Of a DNA stretch of 64,000 bases, positions 892 through 7,221 are shown in pieces; the stretch's first letter is position 1, and each line of letters begins with the position of its first letter. This DNA is from Thermoanaerobacteraceae bacterium (GTDB lineage Bacteria; Bacillota; Thermoanaerobacteria; Thermoanaerobacterales; UBA4877), in assembly GCA_030016635.1 (NCBI GenBank), contig JASEJQ010000005.1, positions 1 to 64,000 on the forward strand. Direction: 5' to 3'. The notes below the pieces were generated by a model that ran no database searches, was not told the origin of the DNA, and was given only the letters and a program-made list of their open reading frames with translations. Made by a program: the position numbers and the translations under genes.

Positions 892-1617
892 TTAAGAATA
901 TGCATGACGTTTCTTTTTCCTTACTTTTTGGTTATCTTCTCCATAATAATAGTAGTAATAATAATACCCGCCTCTGGATTCTTTTACTTTATTTAAAATT
1001 ACTCCCAATATCCTGGCGTTTACCTTTTCTAATTGTTCTTTTGCTGCTTTTACAGCTTCTCTTTCTGTCTGATTGGCAGCAGTAACTATTATTGTACCAT
1101 CAACCATCGTGGATAGTATAGAAGCATCGGCAACACTGTTGACCGGTGGTGTATCAAATAACACAGTGTCATAGATTTCTTTGCATTTTTCTATAAACAG
1201 TCTCATCTTTTTAGAGCTTAATATCTCGGCTGGATTAGGTGGAACAGGTCCACTTGTTAATATATCAAGATTTGGTATCTCAGTGTGTACAACCACTGAT
1301 TCGATATCCTGGTCCGATGCTATCATAGTAGAAAGTCCTTTGTAGTTTTCCAGCATAAATACCTTTTGCAGTCTTGGCTTTCTCATATCTGCATCTACCA
1401 GAAGCACTTTATTGCCAACCTGTGACATCGTCACTGCAAGATTGGCTGCCACTGTGGTCTTCCCTTCCTGAGGGTTGCTGCTGGTAACCAATATGGCTTT
1501 CAGTGGTTTATCCAAACCTGTAAACTGCAAATTTGTACGCAGGACTCTGTATGCTTCTGAATATATTGATTTTGGATCCATGGCTACTACTATCTCCTGT
1601 GATAACTCATGCTTCAT
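892..1617 (-). CDS. cpsD: CpsD/CapB-family tyrosine kinase (BY-kinase)
   Basis: Cytoplasmic BY-kinase that autophosphorylates tyrosines and, with its membrane activator, controls polysaccharide synthesis or export. Seen in 241 aa: Walker A (SSNPQEGKTT, residues 46-55), Walker A' (VLLVDAD, 71-77) and Walker B (TVLFDTPP, 151-158). The C-terminal tyrosine cluster is an uninterrupted run of eight Tyr (218-225) followed by a basic tail. The activator gene stops 1 nt upstream, so the two are translationally linked, and a GGAG site precedes the ATG. An octa-tyrosine run is unusually compact, since relatives usually space their tyrosines, and its TAT/TAC codon tract could slip in length. Family call is firm; the substrate is unknown. 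Confidence 0.92.
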   Translation of the reverse strand: MKHELSQEIVVAMDPKSIYSEAYRVLRTNLQFTGLDKPLKAILVTSSNPQEGKTTVAANLAVTMSQVGNKVLLVDADMRKPRLQKVFMLENYKGLSTMIASDQDIESVVVHTEIPNLDILTSGPVPPNPAEILSSKKMRLFIEKCKEIYDTVLFDTPPVNSVADASILSTMVDGTIIVTAANQTEREAVKAAKEQLEKVNARILGVILNKVKESRGGYYYYYYYYGEDNQKVRKKKRHAYS

Positions 1618-1618
1618 T

Positions 1619-2314
1619 TTAAGCCTCTCCTTTGTTTTCTATATATGGGATAGTGCCTATGACAGGTAAACCAAGGTAACTGGATATATCTTCAGGACTT
1701 TTGAAGGTATTATCCATATACTCTATAACAAAAGCTAAAAATACGCTTATCATCATTCCAAGAAGAAAAGCAATAGCCATATTTAGTAAAGGTTTTGGAC
1801 TTACAGGCTCACTTTCAGGAAGTGCCCTGTCAATGACCTGGACATTTTCTACCTTCATTATACTGACTACCTGCGACATGAAGGAATCTGCTATAGCATT
1901 TGCCAGAGTTGCCGCCAAAATTGGATTCTTATCAGTGACCTTAATCTGTATTATTTCCGTATCTCCTACCAGGCTTACATCTACTTTATCCCTTAACTGT
2001 TCGGTGGTAATATTTAAACCCTGATCTTTTATGACGCTTTCAAGTACAGTACGGCTCCTGGCTAATTCTCTATACGTGGGTACCAGAAGCCTGTTTGTCT
2101 GTACCTCCTGGTAAGAGACTGGAGCATTTGGGTCCACATAATTCTGTCTTGGCTTTCCAACCATGAGGGTTGTGTACGACTCATATGTCGGTTCAATAAG
2201 AAAATAGCTTACAATACCACTGACAGCTACTGAAAGAGCTGTAATGAGCACTATCAGCCAGAGTCTTTTCCGTAATACCCCTATTATATCTTTTAATGAT
2301 ATCTCTTCTTCCAT
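1619..2314 (-). CDS. cpsC: Wzz/CpsC-family chain-length determinant and kinase activator
   Basis: Membrane adaptor that sets polysaccharide chain length and activates the CpsD kinase. The 231-aa protein has two membrane segments, near residues 16-36 and 175-197, flanking an extracytoplasmic domain. A conserved Pro-rich stretch (PESEPVSPKPLLN) precedes the second helix. The short cytoplasmic tail (SYLGLPVIGTIP) is the part that docks and activates the kinase in this family. A GGAGG site lies 8 nt before the ATG. It is followed at once by cpsD and preceded by a membrane protein of unknown function. Confidence 0.92.
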   Translation of the reverse strand: MEEEISLKDIIGVLRKRLWLIVLITALSVAVSGIVSYFLIEPTYESYTTLMVGKPRQNYVDPNAPVSYQEVQTNRLLVPTYRELARSRTVLESVIKDQGLNITTEQLRDKVDVSLVGDTEIIQIKVTDKNPILAATLANAIADSFMSQVVSIMKVENVQVIDRALPESEPVSPKPLLNMAIAFLLGMMISVFLAFVIEYMDNTFKSPEDISSYLGLPVIGTIPYIENKGEA

Positions 2315-2334
2315 GTTGATGTCCTCCTCGTTTT

Positions 2335-2970
2335 CTAATTGTCAAGTAAGAATATATATTTATTGTAAAGTGCCTTAATCTTATTTATCTCTTCTGGAGT
2401 AAACCGCTTATAAGCCAACTTTACAGCTTCATCCTTCTCCTTCCCGGTAAGGCCTCCCTTTGCAAGACTAATAAGAAATGAAATATCCTTATTGGTAAGC
2501 TTTGACATAACAAGCTTCAATGCTTCTCTCTTATCCTCAATGCTTACATTCTTTTCAATCTTTTCCTTAAGGGAACTGTCAGTGTTATTGTAACCATTTA
2601 TAAGACCAACGTCTTTTGCAGGCTTATTCTGGTATGTATTATCATTTTTCCTATCAGATTCGCTCTCTTGATGCTCATCAGTCGTTTCATTAATACTACT
2701 ATTTTTACCCTGTTTCCCGGAAACTGGGTCCATTATTTTCTCTTCTGAATTTTCAGTGTTATTATTTTCCACATAATTTTTGTCTAAGTTATTACTGATG
2801 TCCTGACTTTTACTATCCATGTCAGAAACAAATTCGTTTAATTTATCTGGATCAGATAATAACATTTCCGTCAAAAAATGAAACGAATAATTTATCAGAA
2901 AATAATATATTGCAAATAATAACACAACCACAATTAATACAATATACATTAATTTTTTATACTTTCTCAT
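2335..2970 (-). CDS. Membrane-anchored protein of unknown function in the cps operon
   Basis: I do not recognise a family. The 211-aa product has a basic N-terminus, one membrane helix (about residues 8-28), then a long low-complexity stretch rich in Asn, Ser, Asp, Glu and Lys (about 50-130) likely to be disordered. It ends in a compact charged helical domain (KDISFLISLAKGGLTG, FTPEEINKIKALYNKY). Topology suggests the linker and the end domain lie outside the cell. It sits between an SLH protein and cpsC in the same orientation. A role in envelope assembly or in sensing for the CpsC/D pair is inference from position only. The ribosome binding site is weak. Confidence 0.75.
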   Translation of the reverse strand: MRKYKKLMYIVLIVVVLLFAIYYFLINYSFHFLTEMLLSDPDKLNEFVSDMDSKSQDISNNLDKNYVENNNTENSEEKIMDPVSGKQGKNSSINETTDEHQESESDRKNDNTYQNKPAKDVGLINGYNNTDSSLKEKIEKNVSIEDKREALKLVMSKLTNKDISFLISLAKGGLTGKEKDEAVKLAYKRFTPEEINKIKALYNKYIFLLDN

Positions 2971-2984
2971 GATTTAACCCCATT

Positions 2985-3025
2985 TTTATTTCAGGTGTGG
3001 GGTAAACCCCCACACCTGAAATAAA
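2985..3025. other. Perfect 18-bp inverted repeat between two envelope genes
   Basis: The arms 2985-3002 and 3008-3025 are fully complementary around a 5-nt loop (TAAAC). The repeat begins 2 nt beyond the stop of the SLH gene at 3027. Neither strand has a U-tract after the stem, since the AT-rich part is inside the stem, so it is not a textbook terminator. It may act as an mRNA 3'-end stabiliser or attenuate expression of the downstream cps genes. Confidence 0.75.
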
Positions 3026-3026
3026 C

Positions 3027-5120
3027 TTAATAGTTGTATATGCCGTATATGACCTTTGCCACCTCTGCTCTGGTGGAGTTAGCCTGCGGCCTTAAGGTGT
3101 TGTCCTCATATCCTGAGACAATGCCTCTACCAACAAGGGCTGCCACATATCCCCTCGCATAATCAGATACAGAGCTTCCGTCTTTATATCCATTGAGCAC
3201 CATATATGCTGTATCCGGAGTCTCTGTCAGGGATATAGCCCTGCCTATCATGGTCATCATATCTTGCCTTGACAGGAGTTCATCAGGTGCAAATGTCTTT
3301 CCTGCCACCTTACCTTCTATGATGTGATTGTCATATGCAGCCTGTACATACTCCGCATACCATGCGTCATTTGCTACATCTTCAAATGTGCCCTTATAGG
3401 GGACCGGGTCTTTGCCAAGCGCAAGGACAAGCATCTTTGTAAATTCTGCTCTGGTAATCTTATCATCGGGTACAAACAGCTTATCTGTCCTCCCACCTAT
3501 GACGTGTTTGGATGCCATAGACTCCACATATACTTTTGCCCAGTGGCTCTGGATATCATCAAATGTCTTATTGTATTCTGAAAGTACATATATGCTGAAG
3601 TGGCCTGTCCAACCCTTTATCACATTGTTCTTTTTGTCTACCTTGCCGCCTACAAAGTCAAGCTTGCCGTTTTCCCTGTCTACATAATATATACCCAGCT
3701 TATCTGTGTTTGTAAGTAAACCTGATATGTCAAAACTTATTTCAGCTTTTTTATTTAATGAATTTACAGCTTTACCATCGACACTTAATGTTATATCCAG
3801 TGCATTACCCAGTGTGTTATAGCTGCTATCAACTTTTATATCTTTCAGGACTGTAGATAATGGGGTCACATTTATATCCAGTGTTATGACTTCTGCATTT
3901 TCTATGTCAAATGCAGCTGCTGGTAGCAAAATACTGGCTGAATCAAGGTTTATCCGCAGTGATGCATCGGCAGCAAATACTTCCTTTAAGAGACCCTGCG
4001 GTATTGCAAGCTCTATATTATTGCTGTCAACGCCAGAAAGATTGACCACTACAACTACAGGTGCACCTTTATACATGTCCTGTGCCTTTGTAAGAAGGTC
4101 TAATAGCTTAGCTATCGCATCATCGCTGAAACTGACTACGGCCTGACCATCAGTCATGCTCACACCAAGATAGCCAGACGGCAGTGTCACCGTCGCACTC
4201 TGTCCAGGAGCTGCCGGTGGGGTTATGTCAGGCTCACCCGGAGTTGTGCCACCTCCACTGGTACCACCGCTGGACCCGCCTCCTGGGGTACTACCGCCAT
4301 CGCCATTAGATGTACCTGTGTCAACGGTAAAACCGAGCTTCCCCATATATGACTTTAAATCATCCTTTTCGGTTGACGCTAGCTTACTATTAACCACATT
4401 TGCATAGGAGTCCAGTATATCCTGAATATTGTCCACATCGGCGTCGGTAATGGGATTTATTTTTTGATCCTTTTTAAATAACGTGAAGGTTTTGCCTTCA
4501 AGTATCCCATTAATTGTTGATTCAAATCCACTTTTATCGGTAATCTTGAAGCTGAAGCTATTATTGATGTACGAGACTTTCACGTAATCCAATAGCACAT
4601 CATCGAAAATCTTCCTTGCCATCTTAAAGGCATCAAGCTTGGTATCAAACTTTGTATGCAGTGTGTCATTGAATGTAGTGAATGTGTTATTAAATTCGGT
4701 ATTGAGGTCTTTTATCGCACTGACGGTGCCGTCACTCAAATCTTGACTATCAAATTCATCTATCAGATTGTCAAGATTATCTGATTTCCAGTCTCTTAAA
4801 TAGCTGTCAAATGAGGTTACTGTGCTCTCTGTAACCCCGAGGCTATTCAGCCTTTTGCCCAGACCATCTGCTGTGCCCAGGGCGTCAAAGGCTGCAGATA
4901 CAAGCTGATTAGAGTCATCCAATTTGTCAATAATATCAGACAACTCTCTTAGGTCATCTTTAGAAAATCCACTGAATCTGACCTTGAAATAATCAAATAT
5001 CTGCTGTATCTGGCTGTCTGTCAGGTCATCTTCTCCCTGGGCCAACGCTACAGGGGCCGGAATCATAATAGAAAACAGGAACATGATGGCCACAAGCATA
5101 GATAAAAACTTCCTTTTCAT
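3027..5120 (-). CDS. Secreted S-layer-homology (SLH) protein
   Basis: Exported, cell-wall-bound protein of 697 aa. It has a signal peptide (residues 1-27, ending ALA), an N-terminal helical region of about 240 residues, a Gly/Ser/Thr/Pro linker (about 270-300), a beta-rich domain, and three SLH modules over about 520-697. The SLH cores ITRAEF, LSRQDM and STRAEV are visible; the second departs most from the TRAE core. SLH modules bind pyruvylated secondary wall polymer. A GGGAGG site precedes the ATG. A shorter SLH protein lies just upstream in the same operon. The middle domain was not recognised, so enzymatic function cannot be claimed. Confidence 0.9.
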   Translation of the reverse strand: MKRKFLSMLVAIMFLFSIMIPAPVALAQGEDDLTDSQIQQIFDYFKVRFSGFSKDDLRELSDIIDKLDDSNQLVSAAFDALGTADGLGKRLNSLGVTESTVTSFDSYLRDWKSDNLDNLIDEFDSQDLSDGTVSAIKDLNTEFNNTFTTFNDTLHTKFDTKLDAFKMARKIFDDVLLDYVKVSYINNSFSFKITDKSGFESTINGILEGKTFTLFKKDQKINPITDADVDNIQDILDSYANVVNSKLASTEKDDLKSYMGKLGFTVDTGTSNGDGGSTPGGGSSGGTSGGGTTPGEPDITPPAAPGQSATVTLPSGYLGVSMTDGQAVVSFSDDAIAKLLDLLTKAQDMYKGAPVVVVVNLSGVDSNNIELAIPQGLLKEVFAADASLRINLDSASILLPAAAFDIENAEVITLDINVTPLSTVLKDIKVDSSYNTLGNALDITLSVDGKAVNSLNKKAEISFDISGLLTNTDKLGIYYVDRENGKLDFVGGKVDKKNNVIKGWTGHFSIYVLSEYNKTFDDIQSHWAKVYVESMASKHVIGGRTDKLFVPDDKITRAEFTKMLVLALGKDPVPYKGTFEDVANDAWYAEYVQAAYDNHIIEGKVAGKTFAPDELLSRQDMMTMIGRAISLTETPDTAYMVLNGYKDGSSVSDYARGYVAALVGRGIVSGYEDNTLRPQANSTRAEVAKVIYGIYNY

Positions 5121-5192
5121 TTTTTGAAACCCTCCCCTTTCATTGGTTCTTATATATAATATATTTTATAGACACAAACCACCCCTTCCCAT

Positions 5193-6269
5193 CTATTTTA
5201 TAGTTTGATACAGGTTATATATAACTGTGGCTGATTCAGCCCTTGTAGCCTTACCTTCAGGGTTAAATATACCATTACCCTGTCCTAACATTAAGCCTGA
5301 TTTTATAGCCGAGGCAACCCCTGTCTGTGCCCAATCATGTATGCGGCCACTGTCCTTATATTGTGACATGATGTTTTCGATCTCTACAGAATCCACTTGT
5401 ATGGCCTTATTCATGGAGGCTGCCGCCCTGGCTATGAGGACAGCCATCTCCTCCCTGGTGATGTTTTTATTGGGCTCAAAACTGTGCTCAGTTATACCCT
5501 TTACCAGACCCTTTTGATAGGCTGCGTACACAGCACTGTAAAACCAGTCCTCTGGTTTCACGTCATCAAATATATTCCCATTGGCTGATGTATTTTCAAG
5601 GCCCATCATCCTTACAAGAAGCGCTGTAAACTCTGCCCTCGTTATGTACCCGTCCGGGTCAAACTTATCCTGGCTCTTCCCTTTGACTATACCCATACCG
5701 GTGAGAAATGATACCACATCCTTAGCCCAGTGATTTTCCATATCCTTGAAGCCTACCTGGACAGCAGGGGTGCTGACTGCCGGAGTAGCTGCCGGTGTTG
5801 ATGTCTGTCCTGATGGTGATGCTGCACCTCCGGAGCTGCCTCCCGTACCCTCTCCGCTGCTTAGCATCTCATATTTTTCAAGGAGTCTAATCACTGCTTT
5901 CTCGTCCCCATCCTCTACATATGATATCAATTTCATTCTGTCGTCCTTCGACCATGACTTGAGCTCATCGATCATGTCATATACATCAGACATCGAAATC
6001 CCCTTATCTCTTAGCTCATCCTTATATTCTTCTGGTAAAAGTGAGTTTATATCATCTTTGAATTGTTCCAATCCCTCCTCATCCACAAAGTAGACCGTGC
6101 GGAGCAGGTCTAACGCTATATCCCTTGTGTCTGCATCAAGTTTATTGAACTGGTTAAAAAACACCTCTATAAGTGTCTCATCTATTGAGGCACTTGCCCG
6201 TGTCACAGACGGAAGGTTGAAAACCATTAGTGATATAATAAGAAACAGGATTAAAAAATTACGTCTCAT
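5193..6269 (-). CDS. Secreted S-layer-homology (SLH) protein, short form
   Basis: Exported 358-aa protein with a signal peptide (residues 1-26), an N-terminal all-helical region of about 110 residues resembling the start of the larger SLH protein downstream (short acidic helices such as DETLIEVFFNQF), an Ala/Ser/Thr/Pro linker (about 145-170), and three SLH modules to the C-terminus, two with TRAE and one with TREE. It has no extra catalytic domain, so it is likely structural. Its start overlaps the end of cpsB by 11 nt, which makes it part of the cps operon. A GGGAGG site lies ahead of the ATG, inside cpsB. Confidence 0.9.
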   Translation of the reverse strand: MRRNFLILFLIISLMVFNLPSVTRASASIDETLIEVFFNQFNKLDADTRDIALDLLRTVYFVDEEGLEQFKDDINSLLPEEYKDELRDKGISMSDVYDMIDELKSWSKDDRMKLISYVEDGDEKAVIRLLEKYEMLSSGEGTGGSSGGAASPSGQTSTPAATPAVSTPAVQVGFKDMENHWAKDVVSFLTGMGIVKGKSQDKFDPDGYITRAEFTALLVRMMGLENTSANGNIFDDVKPEDWFYSAVYAAYQKGLVKGITEHSFEPNKNITREEMAVLIARAAASMNKAIQVDSVEIENIMSQYKDSGRIHDWAQTGVASAIKSGLMLGQGNGIFNPEGKATRAESATVIYNLYQTIK

Positions 6270-7068
6270 CTTTAGCCTCCCTTTCTCCTTTGAATAAACT
6301 AAACAGATTTTTGATAATAGAGGTCTTGTTTTTGCCCTCCTCAGGAGCTTTTTCCTCTAACGGTAGATTTTCCCCAGCAAAGATGTAAGAGGGATTTGTC
6401 TCTGTGTATTTGAATAAATCTTTTTTATTTATTATATCATAGAGCCTTGCCATACGCGGGCTTCTCCCGCCGGCAGTATGGCAGTCTGTGGCAATAAAAT
6501 TTATCATACCCTTCTTGTACAGTTTCTGTGCAGTGTTTTTTGATTCTCTTCCGAATACACCAAAGAGGCTCAACGAGTTTATCTGCATCAGTGCTCCTGC
6601 CTCAATAAGATCACCTGCCCTGTCAATGTTCTGGTTTATTATTTTGTTCCTTTCCGGGTGGGCAATTATTGTCCTTACACCCATTACATTGAGCCTATAT
6701 ATAACATCGAATACATACTCAGGAAAACTCATTATTGGTAACTCAATTAATAGGTATCTGCCTGTATCTGCCAGTGTAAAGACATCTCCATGTACGTATC
6801 TATCGGGTATATCGGGGGTAAGGAATATCTCTTCTCCAGGATAAACCTTCAAATTAATTCCATTTTGCATAATTGCGTCATTTAATTCTTTGACTCTTTC
6901 AATTATAACATCCTTACGATCCTCTTTTTCCATCGATATGAAATGGGGCGTTGCTATCATCTGCGTTATGCCCTCTTCATATGCTATCCTGGCCATCCTT
7001 AGAGAGGTATCCAGATCCGGTGAACCATCGTCTATGCCAGGTAAAATATGAGTGTGTATGTCGATCAT
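6259..7068 (-). CDS. cpsB: CpsB/YwqE PHP-type tyrosine-protein phosphatase
   Basis: Metal-dependent phosphatase that removes phosphate from the CpsD tyrosine cluster. The PHP signatures are the N-terminal HTH metal site (MIDIHTHILPG), DDGSPD, ATPHF, the IIAHPERN loop and the late ATDCH motif. The reading frame can open 6 nt earlier at a TTG (7074), but GGAGG would then sit 1 nt from the start. From the ATG at 7068 the spacing is 7 nt and the protein begins MIDIH as in the family, so I chose that start. It is first in an operon that continues with two SLH proteins, cpsC and cpsD. Confidence 0.92.
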   Translation of the reverse strand: MIDIHTHILPGIDDGSPDLDTSLRMARIAYEEGITQMIATPHFISMEKEDRKDVIIERVKELNDAIMQNGINLKVYPGEEIFLTPDIPDRYVHGDVFTLADTGRYLLIELPIMSFPEYVFDVIYRLNVMGVRTIIAHPERNKIINQNIDRAGDLIEAGALMQINSLSLFGVFGRESKNTAQKLYKKGMINFIATDCHTAGGRSPRMARLYDIINKKDLFKYTETNPSYIFAGENLPLEEKAPEEGKNKTSIIKNLFSLFKGEREAKDET

Positions 7069-7197: not shown

Positions 7198-7221
7198 AAA
7201 AGACAAGTTTCCCTGTCTTTT
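7198..7221 (-). terminator. Rho-independent terminator after pyk
   Basis: An 8-bp stem (AAAAGACA at 7198-7205 with TGTCTTTT at 7214-7221) is followed on the minus strand by TTTTTATTAA. It overlaps the pyk stop codon and closes the glycolysis/replication operon. The region 7075-7197 beyond it should carry the cps promoter; I see no convincing -35/-10 pair. Confidence 0.8.

Follow-up and report, generated by a model that had tools for sequence, protein, structure and literature searches.

The subject of this report is a six-gene operon from a Thermoanaerobacteraceae bacterium (assembly GCA_030016635.1), found near the start of contig JASEJQ010000005.1. The DNA analysed, referred to throughout as the window, comprises positions 1 to 64,000 of that contig, and its first base is the first base of the contig, G000:C70 in our numbering. 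All six genes are on the minus strand and are transcribed in the order cpsB, SLH1, SLH2, TM gene, cpsC and cpsD, where SLH stands for S-layer homology and TM for transmembrane. A preliminary description of the DNA had given this order, with two SLH proteins and a single-pass membrane protein following the phosphatase, and it is confirmed here from the open reading frames (ORFs) and from Pfam and NCBIfam matches. The three genes SLH1, SLH2 and TM, which are inserted between cpsB and cpsC, are referred to as the cassette.

The first gene, cpsB (6259..7068), starts at an ATG that follows AGGAGG and encodes a PHP-type tyrosine phosphatase of 269 amino acids. It overlaps by 11 bp with SLH1 (5193..6269), the 358-residue product of which is composed of a signal-peptide-like start, an N-region, a Gly/Ser/Pro linker and three SLH domains. 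After 72 bp comes SLH2 (3027..5120), encoding 697 amino acids that form a signal-peptide-like start, a helical N-region of about 240 residues, a Gly-rich linker, a predicted GAIN/ZU5-like domain (residues 310-518; 3567..4193), delimited by structure comparison of a model, and again three SLH domains. The sequence of this domain includes a candidate self-cleavage motif, H507-F508-S509 (3594..3602). The 56 bp between SLH2 and the TM gene hold a hairpin of 41 nt with a perfect 18-bp stem (2985..3025; -33.7 kcal/mol, z -6.7). The TM gene (2335..2970) encodes 211 amino acids, arranged as an N-terminal hydrophobic helix, a polar linker of about 90 residues and a C-terminal helical domain, of which residues ~137-205 (2356..2562) are conserved in alignments A2 and A3 and helical in a low-confidence model. 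A gap of 20 bp leads to cpsC (1619..2314), assigned by Pfam as a Wzz-type polysaccharide co-polymerase or kinase activator of 231 amino acids, and a single base pair separates this from cpsD (892..1617), which TIGR01007 identifies as a bacterial tyrosine kinase (BY-kinase) and which carries eight consecutive tyrosines close to its C-terminus.

CpsB, CpsC and CpsD

CpsB scores 205.7 bits against PF19567, above the Pfam cut-off, and aligns with the solved structures of YwqE (3qy6, E 6e-38) and CpsB (2wjd, E 1e-26). It has the motifs HTH, HPER and DCH, which we take to be metal ligands. CpsC matches both PF02706 and PF13807 above cut-off, has no kinase domain within its 231 residues, and reaches 181 bits against TIGR01006, under the cut-off of 296 for that model. 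CpsD lies above the cut-off of TIGR01007 with 238 bits, aligns with the CapA1-CapB1 fusion 4jlv (E 2e-53), and displays the motifs QEGKT, VDADMR and DTPP together with the tyrosine tail YYYYYYYY.

Recurrence of the cassette

The preliminary description had called for a survey of gene order, and the order proves to be present in six distinct loci, so it is not unique to one strain. Besides the window these are L131 (on the same contig as L109 and counted with it), which is from Thermosediminibacter litoriperuensis and has a short cpsB ORF of 188 amino acids; L111, in genome G073 of the same genus; L132, from a Thermosediminibacteraceae metagenome-assembled genome (MAG); and two loci from Tepidanaerobacteraceae MAGs, L134 (same contig and locus as L110) and L128, where cpsD reaches the contig end. 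Exact or rearranged versions are found in nine families, eight of them represented by strong matches to the TM protein and the ninth by weaker matches in G166 and G243. The rearranged versions include SLH-SLH-TM-cpsC-cpsD-cpsB (L112), SLH-TM-cpsB-cpsC-cpsD (L119 and L122), cpsC-cpsD-cpsB-SLH-TM (L077, L126 and L125, with no cpsD ORF called in the last), cpsB-SLH-cpsC-cpsD-capD-TM (L108) and SLH-TM with cpsD nearby (L113). Of these loci, L108 may resemble Paenibacillus, as may the locus L074 treated below, and L077, L125 and L126 may resemble Caldicellulosiruptor. In L067, cpsD is followed by two SLH genes, one of them SLH1-like, and the TM protein is a different one. In Thermoanaerobacterium (L129 and L130), SLH-TM lies near cpsBCD on the other strand.

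As an aside on these last two loci, the SLH gene beside the TM gene of Thermoanaerobacterium saccharolyticum NTOU1 (L130 7689-9595, the same locus as L059) appears to be split into ORFs of 75 and 541 amino acids, and the corresponding gene of T. butyriciformans (L129) is one ORF of 652 amino acids.

A natural pair of loci is provided by two genera of one family, L111 (G073) and L158 (G149), which have common flanking genes with 72-90% protein identity: 90% for a 466-aa transferase, 72% for cpsB, 80% each for cpsC and cpsD, 82% for a 519-aa transferase and 88% for UDP-glucose dehydrogenase. Between cpsB and cpsC, L111 carries SLH1-SLH2-TM and L158 a gap of 40 bp. Gain or loss has thus affected the three genes as a unit, and the polysaccharide locus can do without them.

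The association of SLH genes with cpsB extends beyond the cassette. Among 76 additional CpsB loci, 14 have an SLH gene within about 7 kb, where the SLH density of the genomes would predict about 3.1 (nominal P 1e-6, with kinship ignored). These loci were taken down the E-value list, minus those already fetched (including the cassette loci) and several near contig ends, and are not a random sample; the density derives from first-look counts of candidates, at 2.5 candidates to a gene, and genomes not listed as positive count as zero. A strict caller gives no cpsB ORF in eight of these loci and an SLH gene within seven ORFs in 11 of the other 68; all 76 enter the P value. Several of the 14 (L151, L205, L211 and L217) have another arrangement, in which an SLH protein of 567-593 amino acids, a Wzy_C polymerase and a Wzz-like gene stand in a row. 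No description of the cassette was found in the literature searched for SLH proteins with cpsBCD or exopolysaccharide (EPS) clusters, which consisted of top-ranked and mostly open papers, and the part covered of an account of the Paenibacillus polymyxa pep clusters (PMC7911366) yielded no S-layer term.

This recurrence bears on the simplest explanation of the window operon, that unrelated SLH genes were accidentally inserted into a cps operon of this strain. In its favour, SLH domains are numerous in the window genome, with 34 matches. It is already contradicted by the recurrence of the arrangement, in six loci of exact order and, once rearranged versions are counted as well, in nine families, and the hairpins at the SLH-TM junction, described below, speak against it too; we regard it as barely credible.

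The TM protein family

Neither Pfam nor NCBIfam has a match for the TM protein. Its C-domain is helical in a model with an overall predicted local distance difference test score (pLDDT) of 53, and a fold search with this model gave a best E of 2.2, which carries no information. A profile search of the PDB with alignment A6 returned three weak matches, the best of which (E 0.0016) is to a nucleolar protein over the linker; these are not trusted.

The distribution of the family is more informative. Among 398 genomes of the phylum there are 14 matches with E<=1e-13, spread over eight families, and all 14 have cps and SLH genes in the same locus. Four of them are seeds and two were already known; the remaining eight are new, and every one of these is linked to cps and SLH (8/8). 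A scan of named genomes found nine loci, eight of them linked, with two of the linked loci coming from one MAG; L136, from the same scan, has SLH genes within 10 kb and no cps gene.

Such linkage has to be weighed against plain co-expression, in which SLH1, SLH2 and the TM protein would be matrix or adhesion proteins made alongside a polysaccharide that is exported and anchored without their physical help. The clean presence or absence of the cassette between relatives fits this explanation, as a polysaccharide locus can lack it, and surface proteins correlated with EPS genes are known from the PEP-CTERM/EpsH system (PMC1569441). Set against this are the tracking of cps loci, in the 14 strongest matches, by a protein family that would sit in the membrane with CpsC, and the placing of the exact-order cassette between cpsB and cpsC, not at the operon end. 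We consider plain co-expression somewhat unlikely.

A second TM family, termed type II (alignment A7), takes the same slot in L067, L156, L179 and L209. As a functional replacement it was weakened by the 398-genome search and is not counted as linkage: the best six rows are the seed loci, which are cps-linked by construction, and of the other 13 none lies within 10 kb of CpsB among the matches listed, with one about 12 kb away. Beside the TM gene of L108, a protein (5253-6269) combines Cu_amine_oxidN1 domains with the C-domain of the type II family, and a homologue that aligns with it is encoded in L074 (1481-2509). A distant relative of the C-domain of the first TM family also adjoins a protein with NAGPA (PF09992, phosphodiester glycosidase) in the window genome (G000:C60; L115 508-3666) and in a relative (L127 9329-12352); these constitute a second family that is not linked to cps.

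The hairpin before the TM gene

The junction that leads from the final SLH gene into the TM gene folds better than its shuffles in 15 of 16 partly related loci (at most 6 of 200 shuffles as stable). The 16 include the long junctions of L112 and L113 (365 and 135 bp) and do not include L060, L133 and L119. The stem sequences differ between loci. The median z is -4.1, and 10 of the 16 fall below -3. Control junctions of the same operons give median z values of 0.1 for SLH1-SLH2 (seven loci), -0.15 for TM-cpsC (seven, none below -3) and -1.4 for cpsB-SLH1 (three, none below -3). Hairpins are found in the window, L128-L132, L134, L135, L111-L113, L077, L125, L126 and L065. The exception is L122, where the gap is 6 bp; in its relative L119 it is 4 bp, and neither gap leaves room for a hairpin. 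As none of 12 junction sequences inspected has a run of five U directly after the stem, a role in RNA processing or stability, which would yield more SLH than membrane protein, is favoured over that of a full terminator.

SLH1 and SLH2

Both SLH proteins have three SLH domains above the Pfam cut-off. All six binding-motif arginines are kept in the two triplets, that of SLH1 having TRAE/TREE/TRAE and G-x-x-x-G motifs, and the SLH part of the SLH2 model matches Sap with Z 22.9. SLH1 aligns end to end with proteins of four other cassette loci. SLH domains are described as binding pyruvylated wall polymer (PMC6081394), and the window genome has one match to PF04230 (CsaB-like), on contig C37 (E 2.7e-52), next to a gene of the WecG/TagA family. 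The same genome has, on G000:C26 (L142), Wzz and Wzy_C genes adjoining a subtilase of 1433 amino acids with SLH domains.

The N-termini of SLH1 and SLH2 had been said to look alike. This is not borne out, since the two N-regions give a BLASTP E of 0.59 and a profile-profile probability of 1.5%, and what they share is confined to the signal-peptide-like starts, as judged by eye. Homology of these N-regions to each other or to the C-domain of the TM protein was considered and dropped, with no significant match.

The starts of these proteins also bear on the idea that S-layer assembly is controlled by CpsD through direct phosphorylation of the SLH proteins. The argument for this is co-location. 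BY-kinases act in the cytoplasm, and both SLH proteins, with their signal-peptide-like N-termini, would act outside the membrane; direct phosphorylation of them is therefore very unlikely. The TM protein likewise offers few residues before its hydrophobic helix.

The GAIN/ZU5-like domain of SLH2

In the AlphaFold2 model of SLH2 (pLDDT 79), a helical N-region and a disordered linker precede a beta-rich domain, at about residues 310-518, and the SLH triplet; the fold search barely covered the N-region. The beta-rich domain gives Z 9.5 to the GAIN domain of BAI3, 9.4 to CD97 and 8.1 to rat NLRP1 (VIA), and E 6e-4 to the ZU5 domain of ankyrin (Foldseek). Its Z of 7-9.5 against GAIN, ZU5 and FIIND structures is modestly above the best Z of 7-8 that is typical for models without a clear structural match, and the domain has no significant Pfam match. 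SLH2 is predicted, from its model, to have a GAIN/ZU5-like domain with a candidate self-cleavage motif, and this is the boldest lead of the analysis.

In the model, the motif H507-F508-S509 falls between the final two strands. In alignment A4, Ser509 is found in all nine rows and His507 in seven, and other lineages have GFS, SFS, TFS or SLS at this position. As the same type of motif precedes the SLH domains of other SLH proteins, two of them elsewhere in the window genome, it is not special to this operon. In CD97 the cleavage falls at L530|S531. Rat NLRP1 cuts its own chain between F968 and S969 (PMC8081665), and S509 comes level with NLRP1 S969 when judged from the ends of the aligned ranges (978 vs 518), assuming that the last nine residues are ungapped. 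Autopeptidases of the ZU5 type have been proposed in bacterial surface proteins, and a protein radiation with SLH and ZU5 fusions has been described (PMC3482391, PMC11488536). The literature searched for GAIN/ZU5 with the S-layer gave no description of the cassette, and in the part covered of a review of adhesion G protein-coupled receptors (PMC13197933) the terms 'ZU5' and 'prokaryot' are absent. SLH2 offers a simple biochemical test case of whether an SLH surface protein cleaves itself as the adhesion receptors and NLRP1 do.

Proposed function and the polymer

The neighbours of five cassette loci (L108, L110, L111, L131 and L132) include, in varying sets of Pfam families, a Bac_transf initiating transferase, Polysacc_synt_2, glycosyltransferases, UDP-glucose dehydrogenase, UDP-GlcNAc 2-epimerase and a DegT aminotransferase, and in L131 a Wzy_C polymerase directly follows cpsD. 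Going by gene content, this is an EPS or capsule context. No obvious polymer cluster is seen beside the operons of L119, L122 and the window.

We tentatively favour, as possible although short of probable, a reading of SLH1-SLH2-TM as an accessory module, anchored to the wall and S-layer, of Wzy-dependent polysaccharide systems, which would receive, guide or retain the polymer. Starting from the computed gene order, recurrence, linkage, presence or absence of the cassette, junction hairpin and domain make-up, we infer every physical contact in the following scheme, as well as which polymer is involved and what the hairpin does. CpsC, CpsD and CpsB would run their usual phosphorylation cycle and pace polymerization and export at the membrane. 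SLH1 and SLH2, once secreted, would clamp pyruvylated wall polymer by their SLH triplets, which would keep their N-domains within the wall or above it. The TM protein would be a neighbour of CpsC in the membrane, its flexible linker taking the small helical domain out through the wall, and the three proteins could then jointly receive, guide or retain the polysaccharide as it emerges at the wall and S-layer. Through the hairpin upstream of the TM gene, the cell would make more SLH protein for each unit of the membrane machinery.

It is poorly understood how, in bacteria that have no outer membrane, long polysaccharides pass from the Wzy/CpsCD complex across a thick wall and S-layer or stay on them. 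The module offers concrete candidate parts for this process, among them a TM family whose strongest matches accompany cps loci, and it offers a comparison of two related loci of which one has the cassette and the other lacks it. In Gram-negative bacteria, OPX/Wza exporters conduct the polymer of a Wzc/CpsCD-type complex across the outer envelope. In a bolder version of our reading, which we think improbable, the cassette would fill the OPX/Wza role without an outer membrane, as an outlet for Wzy polysaccharide that spans wall and S-layer; SLH2 would cut itself at F508|S509, and its polymer-facing head, held non-covalently on the SLH anchor, could be released with the polymer by force or a signal.

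Several observations weigh against the accessory-module reading. An SLH gene within about 7 kb is missing from 62 of the 76 further CpsB loci, so that SLH partners are dispensable, and G001, the sole other genome of the window family searched, gave no CpsB match. Weaker matches to the TM family (E 7e-9 to 9e-4) amount to 19 rows, of which 12 were fetched: nine are unlinked to cps and three linked, G107 without SLH and G166 and G243 with it. The N-regions of SLH proteins from different lineages are unlike or, for one pair, marginally similar (47% probability). Two of the seven SLH1-SLH2 control junctions also have z below -3. The window operon follows pyk, with no glycosyltransferase gene beside it, and the contig ends 891 bases past cpsD; elsewhere in the genome, contig C75 carries one Bac_transf gene, C26 a Wzz-Wzy_C pair and C37 the CsaB-like gene together with WecG/TagA. 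With polymer genes on other contigs, the window by itself does not reveal the polymer concerned. Finally, L209 has the order LytR-CpsA-Psr, SLH, SLH, type II TM, cpsB, cpsC, cpsD and a CsaB-like pyruvyl transferase, with Glycos_transf_4 further on, and looks like a wall-polymer locus.

The operon might accordingly build or regulate the secondary cell-wall polymer that SLH proteins bind, with CpsBCD pacing the polymer and the SLH proteins co-expressed with their ligand. This comes close to the preliminary description, which had proposed control of S-layer or wall-polymer assembly rather than of a capsule. The gene content of L209 (LytR-CpsA-Psr, CsaB-like, Glycos_transf_4) is why this explanation stays a rival, and it agrees with the binding of pyruvylated wall polymer by SLH domains (PMC6081394) and with the lack of glycosyltransferase genes next to the window operon. 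Against it stand the EPS or capsule-type neighbours of the exact-order loci L110, L111, L131 and L132, together with L108, the joint location of the CsaB-like and WecG/TagA genes of the window genome on another contig, and the TM protein of L209, which is from a different family that is mostly not cps-linked. The wall-polymer half of the earlier proposal keeps some support from L209, whereas its dismissal of a capsule is opposed by five loci; as an account of the operon we find the wall polymer fairly unlikely.

Other features of the locus

Upstream of cpsB, a terminator-like hairpin of pyk lies at 7198..7221 on the minus strand, although sites of this kind are no more frequent in the window than in shuffles. 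Just downstream of cpsD, near the contig end, there are two families of direct repeats, 362-432 with 821-891 (71 nt, 94%) and 134-221 with 229-316 (88 nt, 76%), which lie around and beyond an ORF of 103 amino acids (441-752) without a family match.

Comparison with known systems

The cassette would resemble the OPX/Wza exporters, by analogy, in passing polymer outward from a Wzc/CpsCD-type complex; those exporters are membrane channels, whereas the SLH proteins are wall-anchored. The PEP-CTERM/EpsH sorting system (PMC1569441) likewise has surface proteins correlated with EPS genes, but it is described in outer-membrane bacteria and employs a C-terminal sorting signal in place of SLH triplets. 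A precedent for the favoured reading is SlhA of Paenibacillus alvei, an SLH-anchored surface protein whose slhA mutant makes about half the EPS, 49% of wild type (PMC3776848). The slhA gene has its own promoter and is flanked by a predicted wall-polymer locus on one side and the S-layer gene on the other.

With the autoproteolytic ZU5, GPS, GAIN and FIIND domains (PMC3482391, PMC8081665), SLH2 would share the fold predicted from its model, and its H-F-S motif sits at roughly the corresponding position. It differs in that its domain has no significant Pfam match and several of its relatives lack the His, and its self-cleavage is a prediction. The chitinase ChiW, an SLH protein on the cell surface of Paenibacillus, undergoes cleavage at Asn282-Ser283, just ahead of the Ser, and its parts stay together (PMC5132251); the site belongs to a beta-helix domain, CBM-54, and that paper does not settle whether ChiW cuts itself.

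The known counterparts of the operon as a whole are the CpsBCD and YwqE-CapAB systems of Gram-positive capsules, with which the window CpsB, CpsC and CpsD share family membership, catalytic motifs and the tyrosine tail. The CpsBCD core and the SLH anchoring are of known kind; the difference lies in the two SLH genes and the TM gene between cpsB and cpsC.

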